Shown here: positions 20,462 to 58,818 of the stretch, piece after piece
Numbering within the stretch: position 1 is the stretch's first letter
Layout of the letters: each line of letters opens with the position of its first letter
Assembly (NCBI GenBank): GCA_024742285.1
Contig: JANSYR010000010.1
Span: 62,001 to 126,000 of the forward strand
Length of the DNA stretch: 64,000 nt
Origin: a bacterium
GTDB lineage: Bacteria; Myxococcota_A; UBA9160; UBA4427
Direction of reading: 5' to 3'
The notes under the pieces: model-generated
Told to the model about the DNA's origin: nothing
The model's input: only the letters and a program-made list of their open reading frames with translations
Databases searched by the model: none
Position numbers and translations under genes: made by a program

Positions 20462-20573
20462 GTCGAATACGCGCCAGCGTATTCGACGTGGGTAAAGAGT
20501 CGAACCTGTCGTGCGCGTAGCGCACGAAGTTCGTGCTCGAGCCCGCCGCTAAGCGGCAGGCTTGAGCACGAAC
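20462..20573 (-). other. Three consecutive hairpins between DUF35 and thiolase genes
   Basis: Hairpin A (20529-20573): a 15-bp stem with one wobble pair, a mismatched pair, a 5-bp inner stem and a 3-nt loop; the inner loop holds part of the TAG stop of the DUF35 gene. Hairpin B (20510-20526): CGTGCGC/GCGCACG with a 3-nt loop. Hairpin C (20462-20487): an 11-bp perfect stem, GTCGAATACGC/GCGTATTCGAC, loop GCCA. No T tract follows any of them. They could be processing or stability elements, or partial terminators tuning the ratio of DUF35 protein to thiolase. Confidence 0.7.
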
Positions 20574-20962
20574 GTCAGGTACTCGTTGCCTTCGGCGTCC
20601 TTGCGGGGCGCGGTCTGGAAGTCGACCGTGACGTCCATGCCGAGGGTGATCTTGTCCGGGTCGGGCTCGATGCCGACCAGGTTGGTCTTGATCGTGCCGC
20701 CGCCGTCGAGATCGGCGATCGCGGAGACGAAGGGCACCTCGATTCCCGGGAAGGCCCGGTGGATGATCGAGAAGGAGTGGAGCTTGCCGGTGTTGGCGAG
20801 CTTGACCGGCGCCACGGTGTCCCGCGCGCCGCAGCTCGCGCAGGCCATCCGCTTCTTGAGCGAGATCGCACCGCAGGCGCTGCACTTCTGGCCTTCGAGG
20901 TACGGGTCGCCGCCGGCGGGCGCCTTGAGGTAGGGCTTGATGGTGAGAGTCTCTTCGGACAC
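20549..20962 (-). CDS. Zn-ribbon OB-fold protein (DUF35)
   Basis: A 137-residue DUF35 protein starting at GTG 20962 with a GGAG sequence 8 nt upstream. The four Zn ligands are Cys27, Cys30, Cys41 and Cys44 (CSAC, CASC) and the OB fold follows (LHSFSIIHRAFPGIEVPF, AIADLDGGGTIKTNLVGI). It is the likely partner of the active thiolase encoded next at 19221, as DUF35 subunits are in archaeal acetoacetyl-CoA thiolases and in bacterial SCP-x-type enzymes. The stop codon lies in the apex of a long hairpin that covers the last codons. Confidence 0.92.
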   Translation of the reverse strand: MSEETLTIKPYLKAPAGGDPYLEGQKCSACGAISLKKRMACASCGARDTVAPVKLANTGKLHSFSIIHRAFPGIEVPFVSAIADLDGGGTIKTNLVGIEPDPDKITLGMDVTVDFQTAPRKDAEGNEYLTFVLKPAA

Positions 20963-25666: not shown

Positions 25667-25803
25667 AAAGGGATTGTTCGTCCTGACGTCCCGATCACCC
25701 CCCAACGAAGCAGGGTCGATCGATTCGCTGGCCGGAACGGCGAGGTCGATCCAGCGCGCGATCTCCGGATCGGCGCGTTCTCGAGTTGTGGAGGGGATGT
25801 CGC

Positions 25804-26031
25804 ATGCTCGCCGATGGCATCCGACTGATGGCGATCGGAATGGTCACCGTCTTCGGCTTCCTGACGGTTCTCGTCGCCTTGATGGCCGCCCAGGCCGCCT
25901 TTTTCCGGGCGTTCTCGGGCCGCTTCGCGGACGAGGCGTCCGGGGAAGCGCCGCCGGCGGACGACGACGAAGTCGCGCTGGCGATCGCGATCGCGCACGC
26001 GCGGCGACTCGGCCGGGGAGCGTCGGCGTGA
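25804..26031 (+). CDS. Oxaloacetate decarboxylase gamma-type subunit
   Basis: A 75-residue single-pass membrane protein: one hydrophobic helix (LMAIGMVTVFGFLTVLVALM) followed by a short acidic and then basic cytoplasmic tail. This is the size and shape of OadG, which assembles the alpha and beta subunits of sodium-pumping decarboxylases. The terminal zinc-binding His-rich tail of classical OadG is not obvious. ATG 25804 follows GGAGGGG. The stop overlaps the GTG of the alpha-subunit gene as GTGA, so the three genes form a coupled operon. Confidence 0.85.
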   Translation: MLADGIRLMAIGMVTVFGFLTVLVALMAAQAAFFRAFSGRFADEASGEAPPADDDEVALAIAIAHARRLGRGASA

Positions 26032-27836
26032 GCCAGAAGAAGCTGATCAACGTCATGAACACCGCTTTCCGGGACGGCTTCCAGTCCGTGTACGGCGCGC
26101 GGGTCAAGACGGCGGATTTCCTGCCTGCGCTGGAAGCCTCGGTCGAAGCGGGCTTCACGCATTTCGAGGCGGGGGGCGGGGCGCGGTACCAGTCGCTCTA
26201 CCTCTACTGCCAGGAAGACGCGTTCGACATGATGGACGCGTTCCGGGCGACGGCCGGTCCCGACGCCAATCTGCAGACCCTCGCCCGCGGCGTCTCGGTC
26301 GTGAGCCTCGACTCCCAGAGCTCGGACATCATCGATCTCCACGCGCGCATGTTCGAGAAGCACGGGATGACGACGATCCGGAACTTCGATGCGCTGAACG
26401 ACGTGCGAAATTTGTCGTACTCCGGGCGTTGCATCACGGAGGCCGGACTCAGGCACGAAGTCGTGATCGCGCTGATGGAGCTGCCGCCAGGGTGCTCCGG
26501 CGCGCACACGCCCGAGTTCTACATGGAGACCCTCGAGGCAATCCTCGACGACGGCGTCCCCTTCGACTCGGTCTGCTTCAAGGACGCCTCGGGCACGGCC
26601 GTGCCGTCGAAGGTCTACGACACGATCAAGCTCGCCCGGCAGCGCCTCGGGGACGACGTCCACATCCGGCTCCACACCCACGAGACGGCGGGCGTCTCCG
26701 TCAGCGCGTACATCGCGGCCCTCGATGCCGGCGCCGACGGCATCGATCTGGCGCTCGCGCCGGTCTCCGGCGGCACGTCCCAGCCCGACTTCATCGTGAT
26801 GTGGCACGCGCTTCGCGGGACCGACTACGTGCTCGGGAACGACGAGGACGAGATCGACGTCGACCGGGTTCGCGAGGCGGAGGCGGTCTTCAAGGACAGC
26901 ATGAAGGACTACTTCGTGCCGCCGGAGGCGACCGCGGTCGAGCCGTTGATCCCGTATGCACCGATGCCGGGCGGCGCCCTCACGGCGAACACCCAGATGA
27001 TGCGGGACGCAGGCACCCTTCATCAGTTTCCGCAGGTGATCCAGGCGATGACGGAAGCCGTCAAGAAGGGCGGCTTCGGGACGTCGGTCACGCCGGTCTC
27101 CCAGTTCTACTTCCAGCAGGCCTACAACAACGTCGTCCTCGGGCCCTGGGCGCGGATCGCCGAGGGGTACGGCAAGATGGTCCTCGGCTACTTCGGGAAG
27201 ACCCCGGTCCCGCCGGATCCGGACGTGGTCGAGCTGGCGAGCGAACAGCTCGGCCTCGAGCCGACGACCCGCGATCCGCGCGAGATCAACGACGAGGATC
27301 CCACGAAGGGCATCCCGGCGGCGCGCGCGGCGCTCGAAGAACGCGGGCTCGACATCACCGACGAATCGATCTTCATCGCCTCTGCGCTCGGCGACAAGGG
27401 CCTCGCGTTCCTCGAAGGGGAGCGACCCGACGGCGTGCGGAAGGTCCAGCCCGAGGCGGCCGAAGCTTCGGGCGAAGCCCCGACCGCCTACGCCGTCGAC
27501 ATCGGAGGCCGGCGCTACGACGTCGCGTTCGAGAACGGCCACGCCACCGTGAACGGTCGGGTCGTGCACTACGCGATCGCGGATGCTTCGTCGACGCAAC
27601 CCGGGAAGGCGGGCGGCGCGGCGGGCAGCGTCATCGCGGCCGAGCTCGCGGGACAGGTCCTGCGCCTCGTCGCCGACGAGGGCGAAGAGGTCGCGGAGGG
27701 AGAGGTCCTGATCGTCCTCGAGGCCCTCAAGATGGAGATCGAAGTCAAGGCGCCGCGGGCAGGCCGCGTGGCGCGGATGCTCGTCGAGAAGGATCAGACC
27801 GTGGCCGTCGGTGACGGACTCGTGGAGCTCGCCTGA
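26028..27836 (+). CDS. oadA: Biotin-dependent carboxyltransferase / oxaloacetate decarboxylase alpha-type subunit
   Basis: A 602-residue protein starting at GTG 26028. The N-terminal carboxyltransferase (HMGL-like) domain carries FRDGFQS, the Lys of FKDASGTAV and the metal-binding HTHETAG. The metal-ligand Asp that normally precedes the RD pair is Asn (MNTAFRDG), possibly a subfamily trait. The PYC_OADA conserved middle follows, then a biotinyl domain with EALKMEIEV (biotin Lys about 568). It transfers CO2 from oxaloacetate or a similar beta-keto acid to biotin, and OadB then decarboxylates it while pumping Na+. No biotin carboxylase is present, which supports a decarboxylase rather than an ATP-driven carboxylase. 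Confidence 0.88.
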
Positions 27837-28972
27837 TGGAGACCTTTGCCGAGGTCTGGGCCGCGACCGGGATCGCGAACTCCGCCGGGTTCGGTCAGCT
27901 CGTGATGTTCCCCGTCTGTCTGGTCCTGCTCTATCTCGGGATCCGACGGGGCTTCGAACCCCTGCTCCTCGTCCCGATCGGTTTCGGGGGCCTGCTCGCC
28001 AACGTCCCCGTCGCCGACATCGCCGGGCCGGAGGGCTTCCTCGGGATCATCTACGCGAATGGCATCGCGAACGGGCTCTTCCCGCTCCTCATCTTCATGG
28101 GCGTCGGGGCCCTGACCGACTTCGGACCGCTCCTCGCCCGTCCGAGGACCGCGCTCCTCGGCGCGGCCGCCCAGTTCGGGATCTTCTCGACCGTGCTCGG
28201 CGCGATCGCGCTCTCGAGCTTCGTCGACGGCATCGACTTCGATCTCGGCGACGCGGCGGCGATCGGCATCATCGGTGGCGCCGACGGGCCGACTGCCATC
28301 TTCCTCGCCGGCCGCCTCGCCCCGGATCTCCTGGGTGCGATCGCGATCGCCGCCTACTCCTACATGGCTCTGGTCCCGATCATCCAGCCGCCGATCATGC
28401 GCCTGCTCACGACCGAGGAAGAGCGACGAATCGGCATGGCCCAGCTCCGCCCGGTTCGGAAGGCGGAGCGGATCGTGTTCCCGATCACCGTCGTGATCCT
28501 GTGCGCGTTGCTGATCCCGGACGCGACGCCCCTGGTCGGCGCGCTCATGTTCGGCAATCTGTTGAACGAATGTGGCGCCGTCGATCGACTCGCCGGCGCG
28601 GCCAAGAACGAGCTGATCAACATCGTGACGATCCTGCTCGGCCTGGCCGTCGGTTCGAAGCTCGCGGCGGACAAGTTCCTGACCGCGGAGACGCTCGGGA
28701 TCCTCGCCCTCGGGTTGATCGCGTTCGCGATCGGGACGGCGTCGGGCGTCTTGCTGGCCAAGCTGATGAACGCCCTGTCGCGGGATCCGATCAATCCGCT
28801 GATCGGGGCGGCTGGCGTCTCGGCGGTTCCGATGGCGGCCCGCGTCGTCAGCCGGGTCGGTCAGGAAGCGAATCCGCACAACGTGCTGCTCATGCACGCG
28901 ATGGGGCCGAACGTCGCCGGCGTGCTCGGATCCGCCGTCGCGGCCGGGGTGCTCCTCGCGTTGACGAAGTAG
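27836..28972 (+). CDS. oadB: Sodium-translocating decarboxylase beta subunit
   Basis: A 378-residue polytopic membrane protein with about nine to eleven hydrophobic segments. It has the beta-subunit signature [20 protein letters not shown], whose Asp is a known Na+ site, and the second conserved loop [20 protein letters not shown]. The C-terminal [12 protein letters not shown]...[17 protein letters not shown] repeat motif is also typical. The ATG overlaps the alpha-subunit stop by one base (TGATG). It couples decarboxylation of carboxybiotin to Na+ export. A convergent SleB gene follows about 30 bp after the stop. Confidence 0.95.
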
Positions 28973-32136: not shown

Positions 32137-32337
32137 GCGGCGATCATACGGACCCGGGGCGTGCCTCGCCGGCCCTGCGGAGCGCGATCCCGGCGAGGGC
32201 TCTACCTTTTTCGGTGGAACCGGTCGCGCGCTGCGTGGCCCTCTTCGAGCGGGAACACGGCCGCTCCCTGCGTGCGCGGCGGTGGGTGCGCCCGATCCCT
32301 GTGAAGAACCCCGATGAACGGCCCGAGGTCGCTCCGA

Positions 32338-33963
32338 ATGCCCGCTGACGAAGCCGTCCGACCCCTTCCCTCACGACTGATTCGCGTCGCGACCGTGGCG
32401 CTGGCGCTCGTGCTGTCCAGCGGCTGCATCTCGATCGGGGGCTCCGGGCTCGGCGTCGTCGATCGGGGGCGGAGCGAGGTGCGGCCGCGACTCCAGCCGC
32501 CGACCGGACGGATCGATTCGGGCGCACTCCCGTCGAATGCGGACCTCGACGTCGACTGCGACTTCGATCGCATGCGGGGCAGCACGCTCGGGGGCTACGT
32601 CGAGGTCGATGCGCCGGTGCGCTGCCCGGACGAGGACGTCGTTCGGTACCTGCAGGCGACCGGGTTCTTCTCGGGCTCGCCGGTCGAGGACCCGCCGGAG
32701 GTCCGCGTGTCGCTGCGCTTCGATCCGACGGCGACGCCCAGCTTCGAGCGTTGTGCGGGAAGCGATGATCCGATGCCGGCGGTGCTGCCGGTGGTCGCGC
32801 AGTTCGACCCGGGGCGCGTGGCCTACGGGACCCGGGAGATCGGGGCGATCGCGGACATCTCGATCCAGTGGGAGGATCGTGCCCCCCGCTTCCTGAACGG
32901 GACGGGCTTCGCTCCGGGCGTCGATTGTGGTCCGATGGAGTTCATGGCCGCCGCGGAGCGTCGCTTCGTCGGGCGGGTCGGATCCCGGCTCGGAGAGGCG
33001 GCGCACGCGGCCCTCGAAGCCGCGCTCCTCGGTCGGGTCTCCGAGCGGGTGGCGTTCGTGCCGAAACCGTCGCCTTCGCCTCGGCAACCCCAGAACCAGA
33101 ATCAGAACGAGAACCAGAACCCGGGCCAGTGGACGACGAATTCCCTGACCCCGCCCACGCCGCCGTCCATCGCCGGCAGCGGGGCCGTTCCCGATCCGTC
33201 TCGGCCGACCCGGACGGACGCCGGGCCGATCGTCCTGCCGCCGGGAGGCTTCGGCCGCTATTCGGCGCTCGTGATCGGCGTCGACCGGTACGACCACCTG
33301 CCGGCGCTCGGGAACGCCGTGCGAGATGCCCGCGCGGTCGGCGCACTCCTCGAACAGGGCTACGGCTACGAGGTCACGACCCTCGAGAATCCGGGGCGTG
33401 CCGACATCCTGAAGGCCCTGGTCGGCCTCCGAAGGACCCTTTCCGAGGACGACAACCTCCTGATCTACTACGCCGGTCACGGCTGGCTCGATCCGGAGGC
33501 GGACGAGGGCTACTGGCTCCCGAGCGACGCGGACCGCGAGGACCCCACGAACTGGATCTCGAACGACACGATCACCGCTCAGCTCCGGGCGCTCCGGGCG
33601 AAGCACGTCATGGTCGTGGCCGACAGCTGCTATTCGGGGAAGCTCGTCCGTGGGATCAAGGTCGGGACCCGGCCCTCGGACTACTTCGCTCGGATGGCGG
33701 AGCGCCGGGCCCGGGTCGTGATGTCCTCGGGCGGCCTCGAGCCGGTCTACGACGCCGGCGGGCGAGGGGGGCACTCGGTCTTCGCCGCGGCCTTCATGGC
33801 GGCCCTCGAGGAGAACGAGGCGATCGTCGACGGCTCGACGATCTTCTCGCGGATCCGGCGGCCGGTCATGGCCAACGCGGACCAGATTCCCGAGTACGCG
33901 GACATCCGGCTGGCCGGACATGACGGTGGGGACTTTCTTTTCGTCCGCAAGGGTGCGTACTAA
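32338..33963 (+). CDS. Caspase-fold (peptidase C14) lipoprotein
   Basis: A 541-residue predicted lipoprotein: Arg-rich n-region, hydrophobic core (VATVALALVLSSGC) and a lipobox with Cys at about residue 30. The middle (about 30-240) is unrecognised and contains several Cys. A low-complexity linker (QNQNQNENQN) follows, then a C-terminal caspase p20-type domain: SALVIGVDRYDHLPALGNAV, catalytic His about 381 in YYAGHGW and Cys about 431 in VVADSCYSGKL. Such bacterial metacaspase-like proteases cut after basic residues or act in signalling and death-like responses. ATG 32338 fits the signal peptide better than an ATG 8 codons upstream. Location is likely the periplasmic face of a membrane. Confidence 0.88.
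   Translation: MPADEAVRPLPSRLIRVATVALALVLSSGCISIGGSGLGVVDRGRSEVRPRLQPPTGRIDSGALPSNADLDVDCDFDRMRGSTLGGYVEVDAPVRCPDEDVVRYLQATGFFSGSPVEDPPEVRVSLRFDPTATPSFERCAGSDDPMPAVLPVVAQFDPGRVAYGTREIGAIADISIQWEDRAPRFLNGTGFAPGVDCGPMEFMAAAERRFVGRVGSRLGEAAHAALEAALLGRVSERVAFVPKPSPSPRQPQNQNQNENQNPGQWTTNSLTPPTPPSIAGSGAVPDPSRPTRTDAGPIVLPPGGFGRYSALVIGVDRYDHLPALGNAVRDARAVGALLEQGYGYEVTTLENPGRADILKALVGLRRTLSEDDNLLIYYAGHGWLDPEADEGYWLPSDADREDPTNWISNDTITAQLRALRAKHVMVVADSCYSGKLVRGIKVGTRPSDYFARMAERRARVVMSSGGLEPVYDAGGRGGHSVFAAAFMAALEENEAIVDGSTIFSRIRRPVMANADQIPEYADIRLAGHDGGDFLFVRKGAY
33091..33120 (+). repeat. Five-copy hexanucleotide repeat in the caspase-lipoprotein linker
   Basis: Five tandem copies of a near-identical 6-mer (CAGAAC type, with CAGAAT and GAGAAC variants) encode Gln-Asn or Glu-Asn pairs. 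Slippage could change linker length by two residues per unit without loss of frame. Confidence 0.75.
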
Positions 33964-34654: not shown

Positions 34655-36763
34655 ATGAGTGAATTGATCGGACAACTGACGACCGTGTCGCTGGTGGCGA
34701 GCGTGGTCGGTCTCGCGGTCGCGGTGTTCTTCTACTTCCGGGTGAAGGGTCTCCCGGAAGGCAACGACACGATGAACATGATCGCTCGCTTCATCCGCGA
34801 AGGCGCGATGGCCTTCCTGATGCGCGAGTACCGCGTCCTCGCCGTCTACTCGGTGGCCGTCTTCGCGTTCCTCTTCTTCGCGTTCAACGGTCAGGGCGAA
34901 GGCATGGGCCTCCTCGCCGGTGGCTGCTTCCTCTTCGGCGCTTTCCTCTCCCTCCTCTCCGGCTTCGTCGGCATGAAGGCGGCGACCTACGCGAACGTCC
35001 GGACCTGCCAGGCGGCCCGCGAGGGCAGCAAGCCGAACGCGCTGCTGACGGCCCTCGACGGCGGCGCCGTCATGGGCCTCTTCGTCGCGGCCACCGCAGT
35101 GATGGGGCTCGCGATTCTCTACTACATCTACGCGGGCGATCCGCACCTCGCGACGGTGCTCCACTCCTTCGCCGTGGGCGCTTCGTCGATCGCGCTCTTC
35201 TCGCGCATCGGCGGCGGCATCTACACGAAGGCCGCCGACGTCGGCTCGGACATCGCCGGCAAGGTCGTCGAGGGCATCCCGGAAGACGATCCGCGGAACC
35301 CGGGCGGCATCGCCGACAACGTGGGCGACAACGTGGGCGACGTGGCCGGCATGGGCGCCGACATCTACGAGTCGCTGGTCGCGGCGGTCGTCGCGGCCAT
35401 GGCGATCGCGCTGACCGCGGACGCCAGCTACGTCAGCAGCCTCTTCACGGATGCCTCGATGTCGGACGTCGAGACCCGCGCGCTGGCGGTCACGCTGCCG
35501 GTCTTCCTCTCCGGCGTCGGACTCGCCGTGTCGATCGTCTGCATCTTCATCGCCCGAGCGCTCCGCCAGAACTCCCCGGCGATGGTTCTGCGGGCCGCGT
35601 TGGTCGTGCCTTCGCTGATCATCTCGATCGTGTCCTTCGTGATCATGCCGATGCTGAACGTCTCCCAGGCGGTCACCTGGGCGATCACCGCCGGCGCGAT
35701 CGGCGGCGCGATCATCGGTCTGATCACCGAGTTCTACACCGCGTGGAGCCCGGTCGAGCGCGTCGCCGAGTCGTCCAAGACCGGCGCCGGTACGGGCGTG
35801 ATCTCCGGCCTCGCGGTCGGCATGGAATCGACGGTCGTCTCGCTCTTCATCGTGGCCGTCGTCGGCTTCCTCGCCGCCTACGTGATGCCCGGGGGCATGG
35901 AACTCTACGGCATCGCGATGGGCGCGGTCGGCATGCTCGCCGGTACCGCGATCGTGATGACGGTCGACGCCTACGGTCCGATCTCGGACAACGCCGGCGG
36001 CATCTCGGAGATGAGCGAGCTCGGCAGCGAGGTCCGCGACATCACCGACGAGCTCGACTCGGTCGGCAACACGACGGCGGCGATCGGCAAGGGCTTCGCG
36101 ATCGGCTCGGCGACCCTGACTGTCCTCTCGCTCTTCAGCGCGTTCATCCTCGAGGTGAACCACGTGCGCGTGAATTCGGGCATGGAGGCCATGGTCCTCA
36201 AGCTCGACGAGGCGCGGATCCTGATCGGCCTGCTGCTGGGCGCGTGTCTGCCCTACGCGGTCGGCGCGTCGACGATGACGGCGGTCGGTGCGGCCGCGCA
36301 GTCGATCATCGACGAGATCATCCGCCAGTTCAACGAGATCCCCGGTCTCCGCGAAGGCAAGGCCGACCCGGACGGAACGGCGATCGTCGACATCGCGACC
36401 CGCGCGGCGCTCCGCCAGATGGTGCTGCCGGGCAGCGTGGCGATCCTCGCCCCCGTGACCATCGGCTTCGTCCTCGGCCCGAAGGCGCTCGCCGGCATGC
36501 TCGCCGGCGCGGTGGCCGTCGGCGCCTCGCTCTCGCTCTTCATGGCGAACGCGGGCGGCGCCTGGGACAACGCCAAGAAGTTCATCGAAGCGGGCGGCCT
36601 CGAGGGTCATCCGAAGGGTTCCGACGCTCACAAGGCGGCGGTCATCGGCGACACGGTCGGCGATCCCTTCAAGGACACCTCGGGCCCCGGCGTAGCGATC
36701 CTGATCAAGGTGATGAGCGTCGTCTCGCTGCTCATCGCGCCGCTCATCGCGACGCTTGGTTAG
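34655..36763 (+). CDS. hppA: Membrane-bound pyrophosphatase, K+-dependent type
   Basis: A 702-residue polytopic protein with the mPPase signature region [20 protein letters not shown] and [20 protein letters not shown], rich in the Asp that bind Mg-PPi, and the later [16 protein letters not shown]. The K+-dependence site reads [10 protein letters not shown] with Ala (about 475) where K+-independent H+ pumps have Lys, so it is predicted K+-dependent. K+-dependent enzymes pump H+, Na+ or both; the sequence alone does not decide. It hydrolyses PPi, which acyl-CoA synthetases in this window produce. A structured leader precedes it and a strong hairpin follows 83 bp downstream. Confidence 0.97.
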
Positions 36764-40884: not shown

Positions 40885-41427
40885 ATGACTTCGAGGAACC
40901 TGCCGGAAGAGGGCAGCACGACCCACGAACGACCGCAGACGACCGCGGAGAAGGAAGCGTTCTCTTCCGGCGGCAATCGTCACCTGATCCTGTTGCGGGG
41001 GAAGTGGGGACTCGCGATCGACACGTTCGTCCTCTGGTCGACCGGCTACTCCCTGATGACGAAGCAGTACGCCGTCGCCAACGGGGTCGCCTACAGCCCT
41101 ACGCTCCTGCTCTACACGACCGGCACGAAGACCGGGAAGAAGCGGCGATGCGGCTTGCCCTACTTCGAGGTCGACGGCGCCTACGTCGTCCGCGGCAGCA
41201 ACGGCGGCGGACCGACCGACCCGCATTGGTGCCACAACGTGCGCGCGAACCCGGACGCGAAGATCCGGGTGCGCGGGCGAACGAAGGCGGTGCACGCGCA
41301 CGTCGCGAGCGGCGAGGAGCGCGAGGTGCTCTTCAAGAAGCTCGACGCGATGAGCCCTTCGACGGGGCAGTACCAGCGGATGTGCGCGCCGCGAGAGCTG
41401 CCCCTCGTCGTCCTGCGACCGATCTGA
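40885..41427 (+). CDS. Deazaflavin-dependent nitroreductase-family protein (Ddn-like)
   Basis: A 180-residue split-barrel protein of the same family as the one at 23997. It has LLYTTGTKTGKKRRCGLPYF and the phosphate-binding VRGSNGGGPTDPHWCHNVRAN. A longer N terminus (about 50 residues) precedes the barrel. Reduced F420 is the probable cofactor. The TTG of the next gene starts 7 bp after its stop, so they are probably translated together. Confidence 0.88.
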   Translation: MTSRNLPEEGSTTHERPQTTAEKEAFSSGGNRHLILLRGKWGLAIDTFVLWSTGYSLMTKQYAVANGVAYSPTLLLYTTGTKTGKKRRCGLPYFEVDGAYVVRGSNGGGPTDPHWCHNVRANPDAKIRVRGRTKAVHAHVASGEEREVLFKKLDAMSPSTGQYQRMCAPRELPLVVLRPI

Positions 41428-41434
41428 GCTCGCC

Positions 41435-42097
41435 TTGAGCGTCTACATCGACGTCTGGCACCGGACCCACCCGCTCACCCCCGAAGCCCACGCTCGCTTC
41501 CTCGACTACTACGCGCGCTACGTGGTCGCGCCGCCCTCGGACTACTTCGAGGTCGTCGCGGGCTTCCGCTACCTCGACGGCCCCACGAACGAGGACTTCG
41601 CGCTCTACCGCTATCCGTCGATGGCGGAGATCGAGGCGTCGATGCGGAGCTACGCCGTCGACGGCGAGGCGCTCCAGGCGACTCTCGAGACGTTCTCGGC
41701 TCTGGAAATCGAGGAGACGCGGGGGATCGCGCTCCATCTCCCCCATGCACCCGAGTCGCGCCTCGACGACGCGATCGCCGCGCCGGGCGGGGAGGGCGCG
41801 CATCGCTTCGTCCGCCACGTGAGGCGCTGCGGCGGAAACGAGCGGCCCGCGGCCTTCGCCCTCCTCGAACGCCAGCGCGACGAGGCGGAAAAGGCCGGCG
41901 GCGGGACCCTCGTGGTGGGCTTCGAGTACATCGTCGGCCCGGTCATGGATCTCGTCGAGATCTGGCGGGTACCCGCGGATCGCGGGGTCTGCCCCATCGA
42001 CGACGTCGACCCGGCGCTCGTGGCCGAGCTCGCGAGGCTGGCGCCGGAGCGGGAGCGGCGGGCAATCGAGCCGACGCGCTTCTCGAAGCTGCGCTGA
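41435..42097 (+). CDS. Protein of unknown function, possible dimeric alpha-beta barrel
   Basis: A 220-residue soluble protein starting at TTG 41435. It begins MSVYIDVWHRTHPLTPEAHA and contains a NIPSNAP/EthD-like rhythm (strand, helix, strand, EDFALYRYPSMAEIEASMRS), and later FEYIVGPVMDLVEIWRVP. I do not recognise the family with confidence. No signal or membrane segment. It sits 7 bp behind the Ddn-like gene and ahead of the amidohydrolase gene, so it may act on the same substrate. Confidence 0.7.
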   Translation: MSVYIDVWHRTHPLTPEAHARFLDYYARYVVAPPSDYFEVVAGFRYLDGPTNEDFALYRYPSMAEIEASMRSYAVDGEALQATLETFSALEIEETRGIALHLPHAPESRLDDAIAAPGGEGAHRFVRHVRRCGGNERPAAFALLERQRDEAEKAGGGTLVVGFEYIVGPVMDLVEIWRVPADRGVCPIDDVDPALVAELARLAPERERRAIEPTRFSKLR

Positions 42098-44041: not shown

Positions 44042-44941
44042 GTGAAGGACCAGAAGATCCTCGTCACCGGACCGACCGGTCAGGTCGCCGGGCCGGTGGC
44101 CCACCACCTCGCCCAGGACAACGAGGTCTGGGCGACCTCGCGCTTTACCGACGACTCGAAGCGAGGCCCCTTCGAGGCGACCGGCATCACCTGCGTGAAG
44201 AGCGACCTCGGGACCGGAGACTTCTCCGAGCTGCCCGAGGACTTCGACTACGTGCTCCACTTCGCGTGCTCGCGGACCCCCGACTTCGAGACGGACCTGG
44301 TCGCGAACGGCGAGGGGGTGGGGCGCCTGATGAGTCATTGCCGTCGGGCCAAGGGCTTCCTCGCCTGCTCGACGACCGGGGTCTACGAGGCGGACGACCA
44401 CAATCCGTTCACCGAGGAGAGCCCGCTCGGGGACAACCACCGGGTGATGGCACCGACCTACAGCATCTCGAAGATCGGTGCGGAGGTCGTCGCCCGCTTC
44501 GCGGCGAAGGAGTTCGACCTGCCCACCGTCATCACCCGGCTGAACACGCCCTACGGGTCGAACGGGGGCTGGCCCTACTACCACCTGATGATGATCAAGA
44601 ACGGCACGCCGATTCCGGTCCACACGAACGCGCCTTCCGAGTACACGCTGATCCACCAGGACGACATCAACCGGACCGTGTCGGGACTCGTCCAGTCCGC
44701 GACGATCCCGGCTCGGATCGTGAACTGGAGCGGTCAGGAGCACGTCGCCATCGAGACCTGGTGCGCCTATCTCGGCGAGCTGATCGGCGTCGAGCCCAAG
44801 TTCGACTTCACCGACGCGACCCTCGAGAGCGTGAAGACCGACAACGCCAAGATGCAGGCGCTGGTCGGTCCGTGCGAGGTCGATTGGAGGGACGGTCTGC
44901 GGCGCATGGTGGAGGAACGCCACCCGGACTGGCTGGTCTGA
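44042..44941 (+). CDS. NAD-dependent epimerase/dehydratase (extended SDR)
   Basis: A 299-residue extended SDR starting at GTG 44042. The Rossmann motif is ILVTGPTGQVAGPVA, the active site is CSTTGVYEA followed by YSISKIGAEV, and the later LIHQDDINRTVSG segment is the usual C-terminal substrate region. It may be an epimerase, dehydratase or keto-reductase. Five bp separate it from the APH-like kinase gene, which makes a shared pathway very likely: a reductase forming a hydroxyacyl intermediate for the kinase is one reading. Confidence 0.9.
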   Translation: MKDQKILVTGPTGQVAGPVAHHLAQDNEVWATSRFTDDSKRGPFEATGITCVKSDLGTGDFSELPEDFDYVLHFACSRTPDFETDLVANGEGVGRLMSHCRRAKGFLACSTTGVYEADDHNPFTEESPLGDNHRVMAPTYSISKIGAEVVARFAAKEFDLPTVITRLNTPYGSNGGWPYYHLMMIKNGTPIPVHTNAPSEYTLIHQDDINRTVSGLVQSATIPARIVNWSGQEHVAIETWCAYLGELIGVEPKFDFTDATLESVKTDNAKMQALVGPCEVDWRDGLRRMVEERHPDWLV

Positions 44942-44946
44942 CGGAC

Positions 44947-46023
44947 GTGGCGCCCGCCCGGCCGACGCTGCGCACGGGGATCGAGGACGTCGATCCCCGG
45001 CACGCCCTCGACGTCGCAAGGCTCGAGGATCGCCTGCGCGAAGAGCTCGACGAGTTCGACGGGACTCTCGAGGTCCGCCAGTTCGTCGGTGGGCAATCGA
45101 ACCCGACCTACCTGCTCTCCGATGGTACGCGGTCGTGGGTGCTCCGCCGGAAGCCGCCGGGCGAGCTCGTCTCCTCCGCCCACGCGACGGATCGCGAGTT
45201 CCGGATCCTCTCCGCGCTCGCGGGGACCGACGTACCGGTTCCGCGCGTGCGGTTCTACTGCGACGACGAATCGGTGATCGGGACCGAGTTCTACGTGATG
45301 GACCGGGTCGAGGGGCGCATCCTCGTCGACCAGACGTTGCCGGACTGGACGCCGGACGAGCGACGGTCCCTCTACGCTTCCCAGCTCGACGTGCTGGCCG
45401 CGCTCCACCGCGTCGACTTCGAGGCCGTCGGTCTCGGGGACTACGGCAAGCGGGGCAACTACTTCGCGCGTCAGATCCACGTCTGGGGCAAGCAGTACGC
45501 GGCGTCCCACACGGCGCCCGAAGAACGTTGCGCGTCGATGGAGCGCTTGATCGAGTGGCTCCCGGAGAACGTGCCCGCGGACGACACGACGACGATCGTC
45601 CACGGCGATTTCGGGCTCAACAACCTGATGCTCCACCCGACGGCGCCTCGGATCGCGGCGGTCCTCGACTGGGAGCTCTCGACCCTCGGCCACCCCTTCG
45701 CCGATGTGACCTACCACCTGTCGGCGCGGCTCTTCCCGACGAGCCCCTTCCAGGATGTCGACGATGCAGCGCTCCGCGCGGCGGGACTGCCGACCCAGGC
45801 GGAGTACGTCAAGGGCTACTGCGAGCGGACCGGTCTGGACGACCTTCCCGACCTCGATTTCTACCTGGCCTTCCACCTCTTCCGGACGGCCGGCATCATG
45901 TTCGGCATCGCCGGTCGCGCGAAGGCGGGGACGGCCGCCAGCGATCAGGCGAAGGCCCTCGGCGCCTCCGCCATTCCCCTGGCCGATCGCGCGCTGGAGT
46001 ACGCGCGCACCCTCGGCGCCTGA
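44947..46023 (+). CDS. APH-like phosphotransferase of the ACAD10/11-associated type
   Basis: A 358-residue kinase-fold protein starting at GTG 44947. It has the N lobe FVGGQSNPTYLLSDGTRSW with VLRRKPPGE, the Brenner motif IVHGDFGLNNLM (catalytic Asp) and the metal-binding Asp in VLDWELSTLGHPFADV. This is the family fused to acyl-CoA dehydrogenase in animal ACAD10/11 and represented by LvaA in bacterial levulinate catabolism, where it phosphorylates the 4-hydroxyl of acyl-CoA. An ACAD10/11-type dehydrogenase is encoded about 1 kb downstream on the other strand, and the epimerase-type SDR is 5 bp upstream. The substrate is therefore predicted to be a 4-hydroxyacyl-CoA, not tested. Confidence 0.9.
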   Translation: MAPARPTLRTGIEDVDPRHALDVARLEDRLREELDEFDGTLEVRQFVGGQSNPTYLLSDGTRSWVLRRKPPGELVSSAHATDREFRILSALAGTDVPVPRVRFYCDDESVIGTEFYVMDRVEGRILVDQTLPDWTPDERRSLYASQLDVLAALHRVDFEAVGLGDYGKRGNYFARQIHVWGKQYAASHTAPEERCASMERLIEWLPENVPADDTTTIVHGDFGLNNLMLHPTAPRIAAVLDWELSTLGHPFADVTYHLSARLFPTSPFQDVDDAALRAAGLPTQAEYVKGYCERTGLDDLPDLDFYLAFHLFRTAGIMFGIAGRAKAGTAASDQAKALGASAIPLADRALEYARTLGA

Positions 46024-46052
46024 CCCTCCGCGCGTCCGCGATCGACGGATGA

Positions 46053-46076
46053 GCCGATTGCCCGCAGGCGGCGGAT
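46053..46076 (+). repeat. Degenerate copy of the 26-bp repeat
   Basis: Shares GCCGA and GCCCGCAGGCG plus GGAT with the tandem repeat at 46109-46160, differing at about four positions. Confidence 0.45.
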
Positions 46077-46108
46077 CCGGCTCGGCGCTTCTTCTCGGCA
46101 CCCAGCTC

Positions 46109-46160
46109 GCCGAGCGCCCGCAGGCGAAGGATGAGCCGAGCGCCCGCAGGCGAAGGATGA
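46109..46160 (+). repeat. Perfect tandem 26-bp direct repeat
   Basis: Two identical 26-bp copies (46109-46134 and 46135-46160), each beginning GCCGAGCGCCCGCAGG and ending in GGATGA. They lie between the convergent kinase and outer-membrane-protein genes, directly against the stop of the latter. A degenerate third copy is at 46053. Confidence 0.85.
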
Positions 46161-46161
46161 G

Positions 46162-46902
46162 TCAGAAGTTGAAGCGGATGCCGATGATGCCCTCGTGCGC
46201 GTCGAACTCGTCTTCGACCTCCTGGGTCCGGGTCGACGGGGCGATCACCGCGCCCGAGCCCTTCTCGCCAGCGATCGCGATGTAGCGGTAGCCGAAGTTG
46301 AAGGCGACGACGTCGGAGACCGGGACGATCACGCCGGCCATGGCGTTGTACACGAAGACCGGGTCGCCGTCGTCGATCTCGAAGGCGCCGTCCGTCGTCT
46401 GGTAGACGTCGATCTTGTAGCTACCGCCGCCGATGCCGGCGCCGATCCACGGGGTGATCCCGAAGAAGTCGTCGCCGAGGTCGAGATCGACGTAGCCGTT
46501 CGCCATGACCGCGAAGAGCGAGAGGTCGCCGTCGGCCTGGGTGCCGCTCACGAGGCCGGCCTGGTCGATGTCGGCCTCGCGATGGGTGATCGCGATCTCG
46601 GCGCGGAAGAGGTCGGTGATCTTGCGACCGAGTGCGCCGCCGAAGTGGACGCCGACCTCGTCGGGCTGGACGCTGCCGAGACCCGTCGCGGCGGAGCCGG
46701 CGTCGATCGATTGGTTCGGCACGTGGGCCACGCCGGTCTGGAATTCGAAGTACCAGAGCGTTCCCTCTTCCTCGTGGTCGTCGGCGAGGGCATCGCCGGC
46801 GGAAAGGGCAACACCAGCAAAGAGGGCGAGTGTGAAGAGGCCTGCCAGGGTGGGCAGCAGGTGGCGGACGGGCGGGTGCTGGGCGGGGCGCGTCGGGGTC
46901 AC
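46162..46902 (-). CDS. Outer-membrane beta-barrel protein
   Basis: A 246-residue exported protein starting at GTG 46902, with GAGGAA just upstream. The signal peptide (LLPTLAGLFTLALFAGVALS, then ADALAD-type cleavage) precedes a Gly- and aromatic-rich sequence of alternating beta strands such as GVHFGGALGRKITDLFRAEI and FFGITPWIGAGIGGG. The C terminus ends in IGIRFNF, the Phe-terminated BAM signal. It is similar in length to OmpW/OprF-N-like small barrels, which often import hydrophobic compounds. A lipid uptake role fits the neighbouring acyl-CoA genes but is inference. Confidence 0.87.
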   Translation of the reverse strand: MTPTRPAQHPPVRHLLPTLAGLFTLALFAGVALSAGDALADDHEEEGTLWYFEFQTGVAHVPNQSIDAGSAATGLGSVQPDEVGVHFGGALGRKITDLFRAEIAITHREADIDQAGLVSGTQADGDLSLFAVMANGYVDLDLGDDFFGITPWIGAGIGGGSYKIDVYQTTDGAFEIDDGDPVFVYNAMAGVIVPVSDVVAFNFGYRYIAIAGEKGSGAVIAPSTRTQEVEDEFDAHEGIIGIRFNF

Positions 46903-47024
46903 GTGGATTCCTCGGTAGGCCGGCGGGGACGCTCGGCAACCTCCGAGGATAGGCGAGATCCCGGGCTTCGTCCGACTCCCCGACTCTGCGTCATTTCGCC
47001 GCGAGGCGGACGAATCGGGGCCGC

Positions 47025-48344
47025 CTAGCCTCGCTCCCGGACCGCGTCGACGAGTGCACCGAACTTCGCGCGCGCGGCCTCGCGGCGCGTGGGGAGGTGT
47101 TCGCTCGGCCATCCCTCCACCGGCGCGACGTCCTTGAGGATCTGACGCGCCATCGCCTGCTTGTGGACTTCGTCCGCGCCGTCGGCGATCCGGAGCGCGC
47201 GTCCCTGTCGGTACATGTGCTCGAGCGGCATGTCGGTCGTGTAACCGAGGGCGCCGTGGATCTGGATCGCACGATCGATGATCTCGAGGGTCAGCTTCGG
47301 GACGTAGTACTTGATCATCGAGATCTCGGTCCGCGCGCTCGACCCGTGGTCCTTGCCCTGGTCCATCGCCCAGGCCGCCCGCATCACGACGAGGCGCGCC
47401 GTCTCGAGCTGGGTGTAGGACTCGGCGATCATGTCCTGGACCATCTGCATCTGGCCGAGGGGCCGACCGCGGGTCTGCCGCGACGCCGCGCGCTCGCACA
47501 TCATCTCGAAGGCGTACCGGGCCTGTCCGATGCAGCGCATGGCGTGGTGGATCCGTCCGCCCCCGAGTCGTTTCTGCGAGAGCAGGAAGCCCTCGCCGGG
47601 CGCGCCGATCATGTGCTCGTCCGGGACGCGACAGTCCTCGTACACGACTTCCGAGTGGCCGCCGATCCGGTCGTAGAGCAGGCCCGGTTCGGATGCGTGG
47701 GGGTGGGACATCGAACCGACGTCGCGAACGACGGTCATCCCCGGCGTGCCCTTCTCGACGACGAACATCGACGCGCGCTGGTGGGGAGGGGCCTCGGGGT
47801 CGGTGACCGCGAAGAGCAGCGTGAAGTCCGAGACCGACGCGTTCGAGGCGAACCACTTGTGACCGTTGATCACCCAGTCGTCGCCGTCGCGGATGGCGGT
47901 GGTCGTCATCTCCGTCGGGTTCGAGCTCGCCGTGAAGGGCTCGGTCATCGAAAACGTGCTGCGAACCTCGCCCCGGATCAGCGGGTCCAGCCAGCGCTTC
48001 TTCTGCTCCGGCGTCGCGCCGACCGCGAGGAGCTCCATGTTTCCCGAGTCGGGCCCCTGGCAGCCGAACATCTCCGGGGCGAGGGAGTGGCGGCCGAGGA
48101 TCTCGTGGATCTGGGCGAGATGGACCTGTCCCATTCCCTGTCCGCCGTCCTCGGGCTCGAGGTGGGGCGCCCAGAGTCCCTGCTTCTTGACCTCTTCCTT
48201 GAGCGGGGCCCAGAGTGCGTCGAGCTGCGCCTGGTCGAGACCATCACAGAGCAGGTCCAGGGGAATGATCGTCTCGTCCACGAACTCCCGGATCCAATCG
48301 AGCTTCTTCTGGAATTCGGGTTCGGTCGTGAAGTCCCAGGCCAT
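47025..48344 (-). CDS. Acyl-CoA dehydrogenase, ACAD10/11 type
   Basis: A 439-residue acyl-CoA dehydrogenase. FAD/substrate motifs include FSMTEPFTASSNP and WVINGHKWFASNA, and the C-terminal bundle ends YRQGRALRIADGADEVHKQ. At this end, standard ACADs have Glu as base in YEGTSEI; here the segment is ADGADEVH, the Asp-type seen in ACAD10/11. Known ACAD10/11 enzymes use a phosphorylated 4-hydroxyacyl-CoA made by an APH-like kinase. Such a kinase is encoded at 44947, so the two probably act in sequence. Alternative: a conventional medium- or long-chain ACAD. Confidence 0.93.
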   Translation of the reverse strand: MAWDFTTEPEFQKKLDWIREFVDETIIPLDLLCDGLDQAQLDALWAPLKEEVKKQGLWAPHLEPEDGGQGMGQVHLAQIHEILGRHSLAPEMFGCQGPDSGNMELLAVGATPEQKKRWLDPLIRGEVRSTFSMTEPFTASSNPTEMTTTAIRDGDDWVINGHKWFASNASVSDFTLLFAVTDPEAPPHQRASMFVVEKGTPGMTVVRDVGSMSHPHASEPGLLYDRIGGHSEVVYEDCRVPDEHMIGAPGEGFLLSQKRLGGGRIHHAMRCIGQARYAFEMMCERAASRQTRGRPLGQMQMVQDMIAESYTQLETARLVVMRAAWAMDQGKDHGSSARTEISMIKYYVPKLTLEIIDRAIQIHGALGYTTDMPLEHMYRQGRALRIADGADEVHKQAMARQILKDVAPVEGWPSEHLPTRREAARAKFGALVDAVRERG

Positions 48345-55820: not shown

Positions 55821-57986
55821 TCAGTCGGTGATCCAGGACGTCGGGATGCAGGCGCGTTCGGCGATGAACTCGACGAGCTGCTCGGTCAGTCCGCCGCTCC
55901 GCCAGGCCCGGTCGAGGACGTACGCCTGGATCGCCTTGGCGTCGTCTTCGGAGAGCGCGTCGGCGAAGCTCGGCATGCCCTTCGCGGTTCGCAGACCGCC
56001 GCGGACGATTGCGTCCCACTGGTCGTGGGTCTCGGCGCTGGCGGTCTTCAGGTCGGGATAGATCCCGCTCGCGTGGGTGCCCATCCCGTGACAGCTGAAG
56101 CAGTTGTTCGCGTAGAGCGTACGTCCCTGGTCGATGCGTGCTGCGTCGACCTCGAGCCGCGGAACGGCCACCTCCCGCTTCGGGCGCTGACGAACCGGGG
56201 GCAGCGTGGCCCGGCCCCCGATCTTCCAGGCGAGCAGCCGCCCGGCGTTGTCGTGCGTGAAGCGGGACATGTGGTTGCCGTGGGACCCGCCCACGCCCGC
56301 GAGGACGGCGATGTACTGCTCGCCGTCGATCGCGTAGGTGATCGGCGGGGCCATCACGTCGATACCGACGTCGACGCCCCAGCGTTCCCTTCCGTTCTGG
56401 GCGTCGAAGGCGCTGAAGCGGCCGTTGCCGCTGCCCTGGAAGACGAGCTGTCCGGCGGTCGCAAGGGTGCCACCGGGGACGCCCGAGTCGTGCAGGACCT
56501 CCCAGGCCTTCTTCTCCGCTCGGGGGTCCCAGGCGATCAGTCGCGTGAGGCCACAGGGCATGAAGCGGATAGCCGCCGTCGATTCCATGTCGCGATGAAG
56601 CTGTGCGAGGTCTTCGCCGGTGTTCCAGAGGCCGGGTCGGTAGACGAATTCGTCGAGCGGCGCGTAGAGGTAGGGGCCCTCGCTCGCGGGGATGTAGACG
56701 AGCCCGTTGTCGGGATGGAAGCTCATCGGGTGCCAGTTGTGCGCGCCCGGCGGCGGTGGTGACACGAAGCGCGCTTCCTGCGACCAGGTCGCTTCGGATC
56801 GTTCGACCGGCCGTCCGGTCTCGAGGTCGACGTGGCTGGCCCAGCTGGCGTGCACGAACTTCTCGGCGGAGAGCAGCTCCCCGGTCCGGCGGTCGAGCAC
56901 GTAGAAGAAGCCGTTCTTCGGCGCCTGCATGAGGACCTTGCGCTGCGTGCCCTTCCACTCGAGGTCGGCGAGGATCATGTGCTGGGTCGCCGTGTAGTCC
57001 CAGTGCTCGCCCGGGGTCGTCTGGTAGTGCCAGACCAGGCGGCCCGTGTCGGGCCGAAGCGCGAGGATCGAAGACAGGAAGAGATTGTCCCCACCCCCCG
57101 GACTCCGCTTCGCGCGGTCGTAGACGCTCGCGTTCCCGGTGCCCACGTAGAGCAGGTCGAGCTCCGCGTCGTAGGCCATCGAGTCCCACGCGGTTCCGCC
57201 GAGTCCCGCTTCCCAGAGCGAGTCCGGGGGCCAGGTCTCCGCGGCGCGCTCGAGCTCCGGGTGTTCGTGGGGGCCGTCCTTGCTGCCGGGAACGGTGTAG
57301 AAGCGCCAGGCCAGCTCGCCGGTCCCGACGTGGTACGCGGAGAAGAAGCCGCGCACGCCGAGCTCCGCGCCGCCGTTGCCGATCACGACGAGGTCCTTCA
57401 CGACGCGGGGCGCGCCGGTGATCGTGTAGGGCTGGCCGAGCGGCGCGGTCTGAACGCTCCAGATCGGCTCGCCCGTCGCCCCGTCGAGGGCGAGGAGCCG
57501 GCCGTCGATCGTGCCGACGTAGACCCGGCCGTCGTGGACCGCGACGCCGCGGTTCACGACGCCGCAACAGGCGTGCCGGGCTTTCCAGCGTGCGACCTTC
57601 GGATCGTGGCGCCAGAGCTCGCGCCCGGTCTTCGCGTCGAGCGCGAACACGACGCTCCAGCTGGCGGTGGCGTACATCACGCCGTCCACCACGATCGGTG
57701 TCGCTTCGAGGCCGCGGTCCGAGCCCGTCATGTAGGACCAGGCGAGGCCGAGGAGGGCGACGCTGTTGCGGTCGATCTGGTCGAGGGGGCTGAAACGCTC
57801 TTCGCGCGCAGTCAGACCATGGAGCGGCCAGGCGACGTCGCCCTCGATGGGGACGATCGGCGGCGGCTCCTCGCGAGCCGCGAAGGCGTCGGAGGCATTG
57901 GAGGCGTCGAAGGCGAGCCCGACGACGAGGGCGAACGCGAGGAAGAGCGTGGCGATGGACGGGCGAGGGGAGGGGGCGTGGCCCAC
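55821..57986 (-). CDS. PQQ-dependent alcohol dehydrogenase with cytochrome c domain (quinohemoprotein)
   Basis: A 721-residue periplasmic enzyme starting at GTG 57986 with GAGGAT upstream and a Sec signal (SIATLFLAFALVVGLAFDAS). The N-terminal beta propeller contains PQQ W-motif repeats and the rare adjacent-Cys motif RHACCGVV that forms the disulfide ring over PQQ. WDYTATQ supplies the catalytic Asp and the heme c motif is NNCFSCHGMG near the C terminus. Type II quinohemoprotein dehydrogenases oxidise alcohols and pass electrons to c-type cytochromes. No PQQ-synthesis genes are in the window. It lies downstream of the small exported protein gene. Confidence 0.94.
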   Translation of the reverse strand: MGHAPSPRPSIATLFLAFALVVGLAFDASNASDAFAAREEPPPIVPIEGDVAWPLHGLTAREERFSPLDQIDRNSVALLGLAWSYMTGSDRGLEATPIVVDGVMYATASWSVVFALDAKTGRELWRHDPKVARWKARHACCGVVNRGVAVHDGRVYVGTIDGRLLALDGATGEPIWSVQTAPLGQPYTITGAPRVVKDLVVIGNGGAELGVRGFFSAYHVGTGELAWRFYTVPGSKDGPHEHPELERAAETWPPDSLWEAGLGGTAWDSMAYDAELDLLYVGTGNASVYDRAKRSPGGGDNLFLSSILALRPDTGRLVWHYQTTPGEHWDYTATQHMILADLEWKGTQRKVLMQAPKNGFFYVLDRRTGELLSAEKFVHASWASHVDLETGRPVERSEATWSQEARFVSPPPPGAHNWHPMSFHPDNGLVYIPASEGPYLYAPLDEFVYRPGLWNTGEDLAQLHRDMESTAAIRFMPCGLTRLIAWDPRAEKKAWEVLHDSGVPGGTLATAGQLVFQGSGNGRFSAFDAQNGRERWGVDVGIDVMAPPITYAIDGEQYIAVLAGVGGSHGNHMSRFTHDNAGRLLAWKIGGRATLPPVRQRPKREVAVPRLEVDAARIDQGRTLYANNCFSCHGMGTHASGIYPDLKTASAETHDQWDAIVRGGLRTAKGMPSFADALSEDDAKAIQAYVLDRAWRSGGLTEQLVEFIAERACIPTSWITD

Positions 57987-58128
57987 GGTGTGTCGATCCT
58001 CGGAGGCGACGCGCCTTCGGACGCGCCCTCGGCGATGCGGATCGAGCATAACCGCCGCGCATCGGTCGCGCGTCGGGCCGAAATTGGACCGGGAGTTCGT
58101 CGACGGAAAGGGGGCTCCGACCTGTCCG

Positions 58129-58617
58129 CTAGCGCGCGGCGGCGGGCGCGTCTTCCTTCGGTTCGACGAATCTCGGGTTGCGACCGGCATCCGGGTCTTC
58201 CGGATCGGGGACGAGGGCCGGGTTGCGCGCGACGTCGGCGCGATCCTGCTCGACCTCGTAGAACCAGCCGGGGAGGGCGCCCGCGCGGCGACCCTCTTCC
58301 TGGATCGTCGACAGCGCGCGCTCGACCTCGACGAGTTCCGCCCGCGCCTCCTCGGCCGCGACGCGATGGACGTGTCGCTTCTTGCCGCGGCGGTAGTTGC
58401 GTCGGTTCGCGTCGGCGTAGAGCTCGGTCTCGACCGCGATGGTCTCGCGAAGCGAGTCCGCGCGCTCGAGCAGGGTCCGGTAGCGCGTCTGCCAGTAGTC
58501 CTTTGCGGAATCGAGCTCCGGGCTGCGCTGGGCCGCGGCCGCGGGAGCGAGCAGGAGCAGGCCGAGCCCGACGAGCACCGCGCGTCGAAGCACGAGGACG
58601 GTCGATCGCGAAAGCAT
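58129..58617 (-). CDS. Small exported protein, coiled-coil, unknown function
   Basis: A 162-residue protein with a clear Sec signal (RRAVLVGLGLLLLAPAAAA) and a mature part dominated by an amphipathic helix rich in Glu, Arg and Ala (AKDYWQTRYRTLLERADSLR). The C-terminal region is Pro/Asp rich. ATG 58617 is supported by GGAGG 7 nt upstream. It precedes the PQQ dehydrogenase in the same direction with a 142-bp gap, so an accessory or structural role for that enzyme is possible but unproven. Confidence 0.78.
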   Translation of the reverse strand: MLSRSTVLVLRRAVLVGLGLLLLAPAAAAQRSPELDSAKDYWQTRYRTLLERADSLRETIAVETELYADANRRNYRRGKKRHVHRVAAEEARAELVEVERALSTIQEEGRRAGALPGWFYEVEQDRADVARNPALVPDPEDPDAGRNPRFVEPKEDAPAAAR

Positions 58618-58818
58618 GGTGGAACCTCCCACACGCGCCATCGGCCGACTGTGTGCATCGCCTGAGCATCTTCGGTCGGGACGTCCCGGATCCGCTCCGA
58701 TTTCCGCCGGTCCGGCTCGCGTCGACGGCCCTGCCGACCGAAGAGACGGGGGGATCCGCTACGTTCCGGCGCCGCGCCCGCCGCGATCCGGCCGGACACT
58801 GCCGCAGGGACCGACGCC

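Follow-up and report, generated by a model that had tools for sequence, protein, structure and literature searches.

A candidate 4-hydroxyacyl-CoA kinase adjacent to an acyl-CoA dehydrogenase from a sister clade of ACAD10/11-LvaC that may not be its partner

The locus analyzed here is part of a bacterial DNA stretch of 64,000 nucleotides (the window) and comprises the genes for an extended SDR, an APH-fold kinase, a small outer-membrane beta-barrel and an acyl-CoA dehydrogenase (ACAD) (Table 1). The kinase has a GTG start located 5 bp past the SDR stop codon, and the barrel, a member of PF13505, lies between kinase and dehydrogenase, a layout already described in a first-pass annotation of this DNA. 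The kinase core (VHGDFGLNNLM and LDWE) and the Asp-type signature ADGADEVH near the C-terminus of the dehydrogenase, reported in the same annotation, were also found. Kinase and dehydrogenase are considered real genes because they match Pfam families PF01636 (175 bits) and PF00441 (142 bits), respectively, and have orthologues of 68-94% identity within the genus; remote APH and ACAD families are the sole NCBIfam names they receive. Both genes are convergently transcribed and therefore cannot form a single operon. Synteny across relatives was mapped with tblastn, since a simple GC-based gene caller replaced the kinase by an antisense frame.

Table 1. Genes and functionally relevant sites at the locus (positions refer to the window)
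Feature	Position	Strand	Basis
Extended SDR, TerB-like	44042-44941	+	TerB 6d2v, 198 bits
ACAD10/11-type kinase, APH fold, candidate 4-hydroxyacyl-CoA kinase	44947-46023	+	PF01636, clade, fold
Arg83 codon, equivalent of mouse ACAD11 R86, CoA contact	45193-45195	+	invariant in alignment
Arg175 codon, equivalent of mouse ACAD11 R176, CoA contact	45469-45471	+	invariant in alignment
Asp221 to Asn226, equivalents of catalytic D220 and N225	45607-45624	+	alignment
Small outer-membrane beta-barrel, bystander	about 46162-46902	-	PF13505
Acyl-CoA dehydrogenase, HAMR sister clade of ACAD10/11-LvaC	47025-48344	-	trees, sequence, fold
Catalytic-base Asp388 codon, equivalent of ACAD11 D753	47181-47183	-	alignment
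Phosphate-pocket motif RLGGGRIHHAMR	47535-47570	-	alignment

Among solved relatives, the kinase scored 339 bits against 3dxp (49% identity) and 252 bits against mouse ACAD11 (40%), and 3dxp was also the first match in a fold search (E 5e-32). It is nested in a 28-row clade that contains the ACAD11 kinase and Burkholderiales kinases, with a support of 100/100 in the careful tree and 100 in the quick tree. All four residues reported for catalysis and CoA contact are kept and are invariant in the kinase alignment (R83, R175, D221 and N226), Arg83 being present in all clade kinases covering this site. An antibiotic- or choline-type APH kinase with no tie to lipid catabolism is highly improbable: the Pfam family is shared, with 31 PF01636 matches in the whole genome, but antibiotic kinases score below 35 bits, the CoA-contact arginines are absent from the more distant APH paralogues of this genome (L014-L016), and characterized APH, MPH or choline kinases were rejected as nearest kin by sequence, fold and tree. 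The initial assignment to the ACAD10/11 type is thus upheld, and comparison with this clade indicates that the kinase very probably acts on 4-hydroxyacyl-CoA.

The dehydrogenase was also correctly recognized as an enzyme of the ACAD10/11 type and not a Glu-base ACAD. It scored 271 bits against 4hr3 and 261 bits against ACAD11 (41% identity), compared with at most 173 bits for ordinary ACADs, and the same two proteins were its best solved relatives in a fold search. Its residues R259, H267 and R270 correspond to the phosphate-pocket residues R626, H634 and R637 of ACAD11; together with the D753 equivalent, these positions are invariant in 65/65 rows of the ACAD10/11-LvaC superfamily and, as a set, absent from ordinary ACADs. 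A classical Glu-type enzyme (MCAD/SCAD) is ruled out by the Asp base and by the best matches in sequence and fold. In the tree, the dehydrogenase does not fall inside the ACAD11/LvaC-type clade (support 100/98) but in a sister clade (91/74; 95/83 with L289) that has HAMR in place of HCMR in the pocket motif and RLGGGR in place of RLGPGR. Ala268 thus stands where ACAD11 has Cys, a position occupied by Ala in all 29 HAMR rows and by Cys in 31 of the 32 LvaC-type rows. The loss of this Cys need not abolish function, because 4hr3, a member of the LvaC clade that is itself uncharacterized, likewise has Ala. The proline at the cavity opening of human ACAD11 (P463) is present in the window dehydrogenase but varies within the LvaC-type clade as aligned. 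The HAMR clade is apparently uncharacterized; the literature search yielded no biochemical data on any HAMR enzyme and nothing relevant on FadE36 and steroid links. Judged by its residues, the window dehydrogenase is probably a phosphate-eliminating ACAD.

A phosphate-elimination mechanism has been proposed for ACAD10/11 (PMC12440821, PMC11342911), and both ACAD10 domains were replaced in vitro by a B. pseudomallei kinase/ACAD pair (PMC11342911). Clade, fold and conserved residues suggest that the window kinase would phosphorylate the 4-hydroxyl of 4-hydroxyacyl-CoAs with ATP as donor, and that an FAD-containing ACAD of the ACAD10/11-LvaC superfamily would then strip the phosphate. In this step, the Asp would take the C2 proton, Arg/His/Arg would hold the phosphate and FAD would lend a hydride, giving a 2-enoyl-CoA that would feed beta-oxidation. 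The window dehydrogenase probably catalyzes an elimination of this kind, perhaps with another hydroxyacyl-CoA as substrate.

Several known systems resemble the locus in part. With animal ACAD10 and ACAD11 it shares the kinase clade, the catalytic and CoA-contact residues, the Asp base and the R626/H634/R637 equivalents, whereas the window genes are separate and the dehydrogenase belongs to the sister clade, at the above 41% identity and with HAMR for HCMR. In the comparisons, P. putida LvaA and LvaC were represented by Burkholderiales relatives, 3dxp, 4hr3 and ACAD11. Pairs of an LvaA-type kinase and an LvaC-type ACAD occur in Burkholderia and its relatives (tested in PMC11342911). The window kinase is about 50% identical to the Burkholderiales relatives 3dxp, L134 and L160, but the neighbouring ACADs of those pairs are LvaC-type, with 55-62% identity to ACAD11 or 4hr3 and 37-43% to the window ACAD. 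The lva operon of Pseudomonas putida and P. citronellolis also has kinase, ACAD and SDR in one neighbourhood; however, it is co-directional (kinase, LvaB, LvaC, LvaD, LvaE), whereas the window genes are not, the window SDR is an extended TerB-like enzyme, and the set includes neither a CoA ligase nor a small LvaB-like gene. The 25-hydroxysteroid kinase of Sterolibacterium denitrificans (9fsg; PMC8449060) likewise has an APH fold and activates a hydroxyl for phosphate elimination, but it is distant (39 bits; 20% in the fold search) and its substrate is a free sterol and not an acyl-CoA.

The neighbourhoods of related genes bear on whether kinase and dehydrogenase are partners. An LvaC-type ACAD (50-62% identity to ACAD11 or 4hr3) was found within 10 kb in 36 of 80 kinase homologues, mostly within 250 bp, whereas a HAMR-type ACAD was found within this distance of none of the 80. 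HAMR ACADs elsewhere adjoin kinases of another clade, as seen in 15 of its 19 rows. Since the window kinase clade pairs elsewhere with LvaC-type ACADs and HAMR ACADs pair with this other kinase clade, the window pair is, on these phylogenetic grounds, a crossed one, its two members coming from separate co-evolving halves of the superfamily. An LvaC-type dehydrogenase that is 55% identical to mouse ACAD11 is encoded in the same genome, outside the window and 42 kb from the kinase (G000:C10:150548-151789), and it is the likeliest partner of the kinase, alone or in addition to the window enzyme. This pairing is not exclusive, because many relatives carry an LvaC-type ACAD without a window-type kinase. 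We assign a probability of about 0.6 to the overall reading of an ACAD10/11-type kinase, a HAMR-clade dehydrogenase and an LvaC-type enzyme as the likeliest partner. The known chemistry probably applies, but the two window genes may not truly belong together, and the initial idea of a cognate pair loses ground given the different superfamily halves and the LvaC-type enzyme elsewhere in the genome.

Alternatively, the two genes might form a working 4-hydroxyacyl-CoA pair through a cross-clade partner swap fixed in the genus, a minority reading of some weight. They lie side by side in four genomes (G000, G002, G004 and G005), in G002 separated by just about 130 bp that contain no barrel gene; G007 has the SDR directly beside FADox and lacks both genes, which fits joint gain or loss, and the dehydrogenase retains every pocket residue of the superfamily. 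Against this reading stand the convergent transcription, the LvaC-type partner encoded elsewhere, the occurrence of SDR and kinase without the dehydrogenase in G001, and G008, where the dehydrogenase lies at the edge of a contig and a genome-wide search gave no kinase. Furthermore, this neighbourhood was seen in one genus only, and synteny extends to the flanking genes from F420red to FADox, which makes proximity partly background; because the whole block is syntenic, the adjacency was discounted as support for a pair. Kinase-ACAD pairs as such recur in other organisms, whereas the cross-clade pair of the window was seen in its own genus only.

It is also possible, though tentative, that the window dehydrogenase acts on its own phospho-acyl-CoA, supplied by a HAMR-clade kinase at another locus (C1:756290 or C11:201176), and that its proximity to the window kinase is genus-level synteny. 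Two kinases of the same genome (L012 and L013) belong to the HAMR-partner kinase clade (99/94), as does the kinase of L102 and L251, the nearest kinase-adjacent relatives of the window ACAD. However, there is no HAMR ACAD near L012 or L013, and the HAMR-type ACADs L018 and L019 of this genome could be their partners instead.

Less probable is that the dehydrogenase is an ordinary oxidative ACAD whose substrate is polar, carboxylated or cyclic, with Arg/His/Arg binding something other than phosphate. Glutaryl-CoA dehydrogenase binds a carboxylate by an analogous Arg (PMC12440821), and a kinase adjoins the ACAD at only 11 of the 36 HAMR-type loci of the phylum. This fraction is nevertheless well above the approximately 5% expected within 5 kb, the pocket residues are invariant in both superfamily halves, and an APH kinase lies within about 1 kb of the HAMR ACAD at 8 of 9 sampled plasmid loci (expected about 0.02 each), which makes such an enzyme unlikely. 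Contig C6 of the same genome has a kinase-DUF6285-ACAD row in which the ACAD uses Glu as its base and lacks all of the pocket residues; adjacency of kinase and ACAD alone is therefore no proof of phosphate elimination. DUF6285 is a possible LvaB counterpart.

The first-pass annotation had suggested that the set, with the SDR and the barrel, could be a complete import-to-beta-oxidation route, and this part was not sustained. Of 61 genomes, 44 carry the SDR, in most cases with the kinase missing, and no SDR-kinase linkage outside the genus was supported in these 61 genomes; the SDR probably does not belong to the module as a dedicated component. A role as LvaD-like 4-oxoacyl-CoA reductase was dropped given this distribution and TerB as nearest relative. 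The barrel is 43-57% identical in relatives and absent from this place in G002, and it was rejected as a fatty-acid importer since it belongs to PF13505 and is not FadL. No CoA ligase or transporter belongs to the window set.

Beyond the window, Actinomycetota and Proteobacteria repeatedly carry an operon that joins a HAMR ACAD to a kinase of its partner clade, often together with an SDR, and tandem HAMR operons occur in Rhodococcus, Massilia, Variovorax and Caulobacter. We tentatively propose, at somewhat below even odds, that this combination may be a second, uncharacterized ATP-driven route of hydroxyacyl-CoA dehydroxylation in Actinomycetota, alpha- and betaproteobacteria and the phylum of the window, with a substrate other than the 4-hydroxy fatty acids of ACAD10/11, and that the window genus may have joined a HAMR dehydrogenase to an ACAD11-type kinase. 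The role of ACAD10/11 in 4-hydroxy acid catabolism was assigned as recently as 2024-2025. In bacteria, the superfamily divides into at least two halves that are matched by separate kinase clades, and as far as the literature found shows, the LvaC/ACAD11 half is the sole one tested. Recognition of the HAMR clade would also correct many automatic annotations, such as "aminoglycoside phosphotransferase" or plain "acyl-CoA dehydrogenase". Given the clean HAMR diagnostic and the tandem operons in culturable genera, the substrate range of phosphate-eliminating ACADs is directly testable.

The first-pass annotation had proposed that kinase, SDR, barrel and ACAD10/11-type dehydrogenase (ACAD, acyl-CoA dehydrogenase) form a 4-hydroxyacyl-CoA module; all four genes were found where it had placed them, and its domain-level reading of kinase and dehydrogenase was right. 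In a search of all solved structures, the kinase scored highest against Ralstonia 3dxp (339 bits), followed by mouse ACAD11 at 252 bits; kinases for macrolides, viomycin and hygromycin stayed below 35 bits. A fold search with its AlphaFold model (mean pLDDT 87.5) again placed 3dxp on top (E 5e-32), with a partial ACAD11 match ranking below 25-hydroxysteroid kinase and Rv3168. It falls inside the ACAD11-kinase clade (support 100/100; careful tree of 61 kinases), and all four equivalents of the ACAD11 residues for catalysis (D220, N225) and CoA contact (R86, R176) (PMC12440821) are present. We infer that it is an active kinase.

Gene set of the kinase-dehydrogenase locus and other features of the window
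Feature	Position	Strand	Remarks
SDR	44042-44941	+
Kinase	44947-46023	+	5 bp downstream of SDR
Small outer-membrane barrel	about 46162-46902	-	between kinase and dehydrogenase
Dehydrogenase	47025-48344	-	beyond barrel, convergent with kinase
ChsH2-like/thiolase set	16484-20962		two OB-fold proteins resembling ChsH2, in alternation with SCP2-like thiolases, two P450 genes nearby; resembles a set for degrading side chains of sterol or isoprenoid type
Biotin-dependent carboxylase/decarboxylase alpha-like protein	25674-28972		adjoins sodium-pumping oxaloacetate decarboxylase beta subunit
Caspase-like (Peptidase_C14) domain protein	32314-33963
Membrane proton-pumping pyrophosphatase	34655-36763		conserved in genus close to kinase-dehydrogenase block
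F420-type nitroreductase-family protein	40885-42097		NIPSNAP-like gene close behind; pair retained in several genus members
Cytochrome c domain fused to PQQ-dependent alcohol dehydrogenase	55821-58799

For the dehydrogenase, 4hr3 leads the solved relatives with 271 bits, ACAD11 follows with 261 bits and no ordinary ACAD exceeds 173 bits; a fold search with its model (mean pLDDT 82.5) gave the same ranking. Equivalents of R626, H634, R637 and D753, which ACAD11 requires for phosphate elimination (PMC12440821), are invariant in all 65 rows of its superfamily, and the complete set was found in none of 17 other ACADs aligned. Judging from these pocket residues, phosphate elimination is our best guess for its function. 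Most likely, the window kinase would form a 4-phosphoacyl-CoA, from which an ACAD of this superfamily would strip the phosphate to yield 2-enoyl-CoA, a chemistry reported for ACAD10/11 and one B. pseudomallei pair (PMC12440821, PMC11342911).

HAMR replaces HCMR in 29 of 29 rows of the dehydrogenase's clade, and RLGGGR replaces RLGPGR in nearly all examples inspected. In the careful tree, a branch with 91/74 support sets this HAMR clade apart (95/83 with the HCMR relative L289 included), and the ACAD11/LvaC-type clade has 100/98; as tested, this places the window dehydrogenase's clade beside ACAD10/11-LvaC, as its sister, rather than inside it. The superfamily has a third deep lineage (L256-L258), with RIYDGPDEVH and HCMR, which in L257 and L258 directly adjoins an ACAD11-type kinase.

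As to the kinase's partner, matching of clades would favour a distant LvaC-type dehydrogenase over that of the window. Among 80 kinase homologues in named genomes, 36 have an LvaC-type ACAD (50-62% identity to ACAD11 or 4hr3) no more than 10 kb away, in most cases at 250 bp or less, and none has a HAMR-type ACAD in that range. In the kinase tree, a HAMR ACAD adjoins 15 of 19 rows of a separate APH-type clade, and the ACAD11-kinase clade (28 rows) has such a neighbour only in the window's genus. Kinase and dehydrogenase thus come from differently paired clades, which makes the window pair a crossed one. The single LvaC-type ACAD of the source genome (C10:150548-151789; 55% to mouse ACAD11, HCMR) lies 42 kb from the window kinase, no kinase was found adjoining it, and the HAMR-partner clade is represented by two kinases encoded elsewhere in the genome.

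The two genes are adjacent in four genus genomes (G000, the source, and G002, G004 and G005), and from the 31 APH-family matches in the 6.5 Mb draft source genome, the chance expectation of one within 1 kb of any gene is ~0.02. The window covers 62001-126000 of that genome's contig C10. The G003 contig stops short of the expected dehydrogenase position; G001 has SDR and kinase without dehydrogenase or carboxylesterase, G008 a dehydrogenase on a contig edge with no kinase found, and G007 an SDR adjoining the FAD enzyme gene without kinase or dehydrogenase. As evidence that the two form a functional pair, this adjacency counts for little because the block from F420-type reductase to FAD enzyme is syntenic throughout, and convergence across the barrel means that there is no operon; with the clades crossed as well, the proposed pairing is uncertain. 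The source genome also holds a kinase-DUF6285-ACAD row (L099, G000:C6:274942-277603) in which the ACAD carries Glu as its base and lacks the phosphate pocket, so adjacency alone is no proof of phosphate elimination. The DUF6285 protein may act as a small partner of the kinase, similar to LvaB. In L302 (5255-7049) and L304 (5155-7125), a kinase adjoins a histidine-phosphatase gene and an ACAD, with DUF6285 too in Thermus; these rows recall the P. citronellolis lva cluster, where a histidine phosphatase takes the position of P. putida LvaB (PMC6692424).

A complete import-to-beta-oxidation route including SDR and barrel found no support. SDR homologues (nearest solved relative, TerB) occur in 44 of 61 genomes, mostly distant from any kinase, and the barrel is missing in G002 and fast-diverging elsewhere (43-57%).

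That bacteria have ACAD10/11-like pairs was known before; the part that appears to be new is the HAMR sister clade and the separate kinases that go with it, and a non-exhaustive search of the ACAD10/11 and wider literature found no account of it. In the phylum outside the genus, 36 loci were assigned to the HAMR type by their identity to the window protein, and some of these were also placed on a tree; 11 of the 36 carry a kinase no further than about 5 kb away (about 5% expected). Nine plasmid HAMR ACADs were sampled (Variovorax, Streptomyces, Massilia, Caulobacter, Sphingomonas, Rhodococcus). In eight (L290-L296, L308), an APH-type kinase lies about 1 kb away or less, and in six of these eight it is co-directional and at most 100 bp distant; an SDR is often next in the row. 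On plasmids, HAMR-type ACAD and APH-type kinase, often with an SDR, are a recurrent uncharacterised operon.
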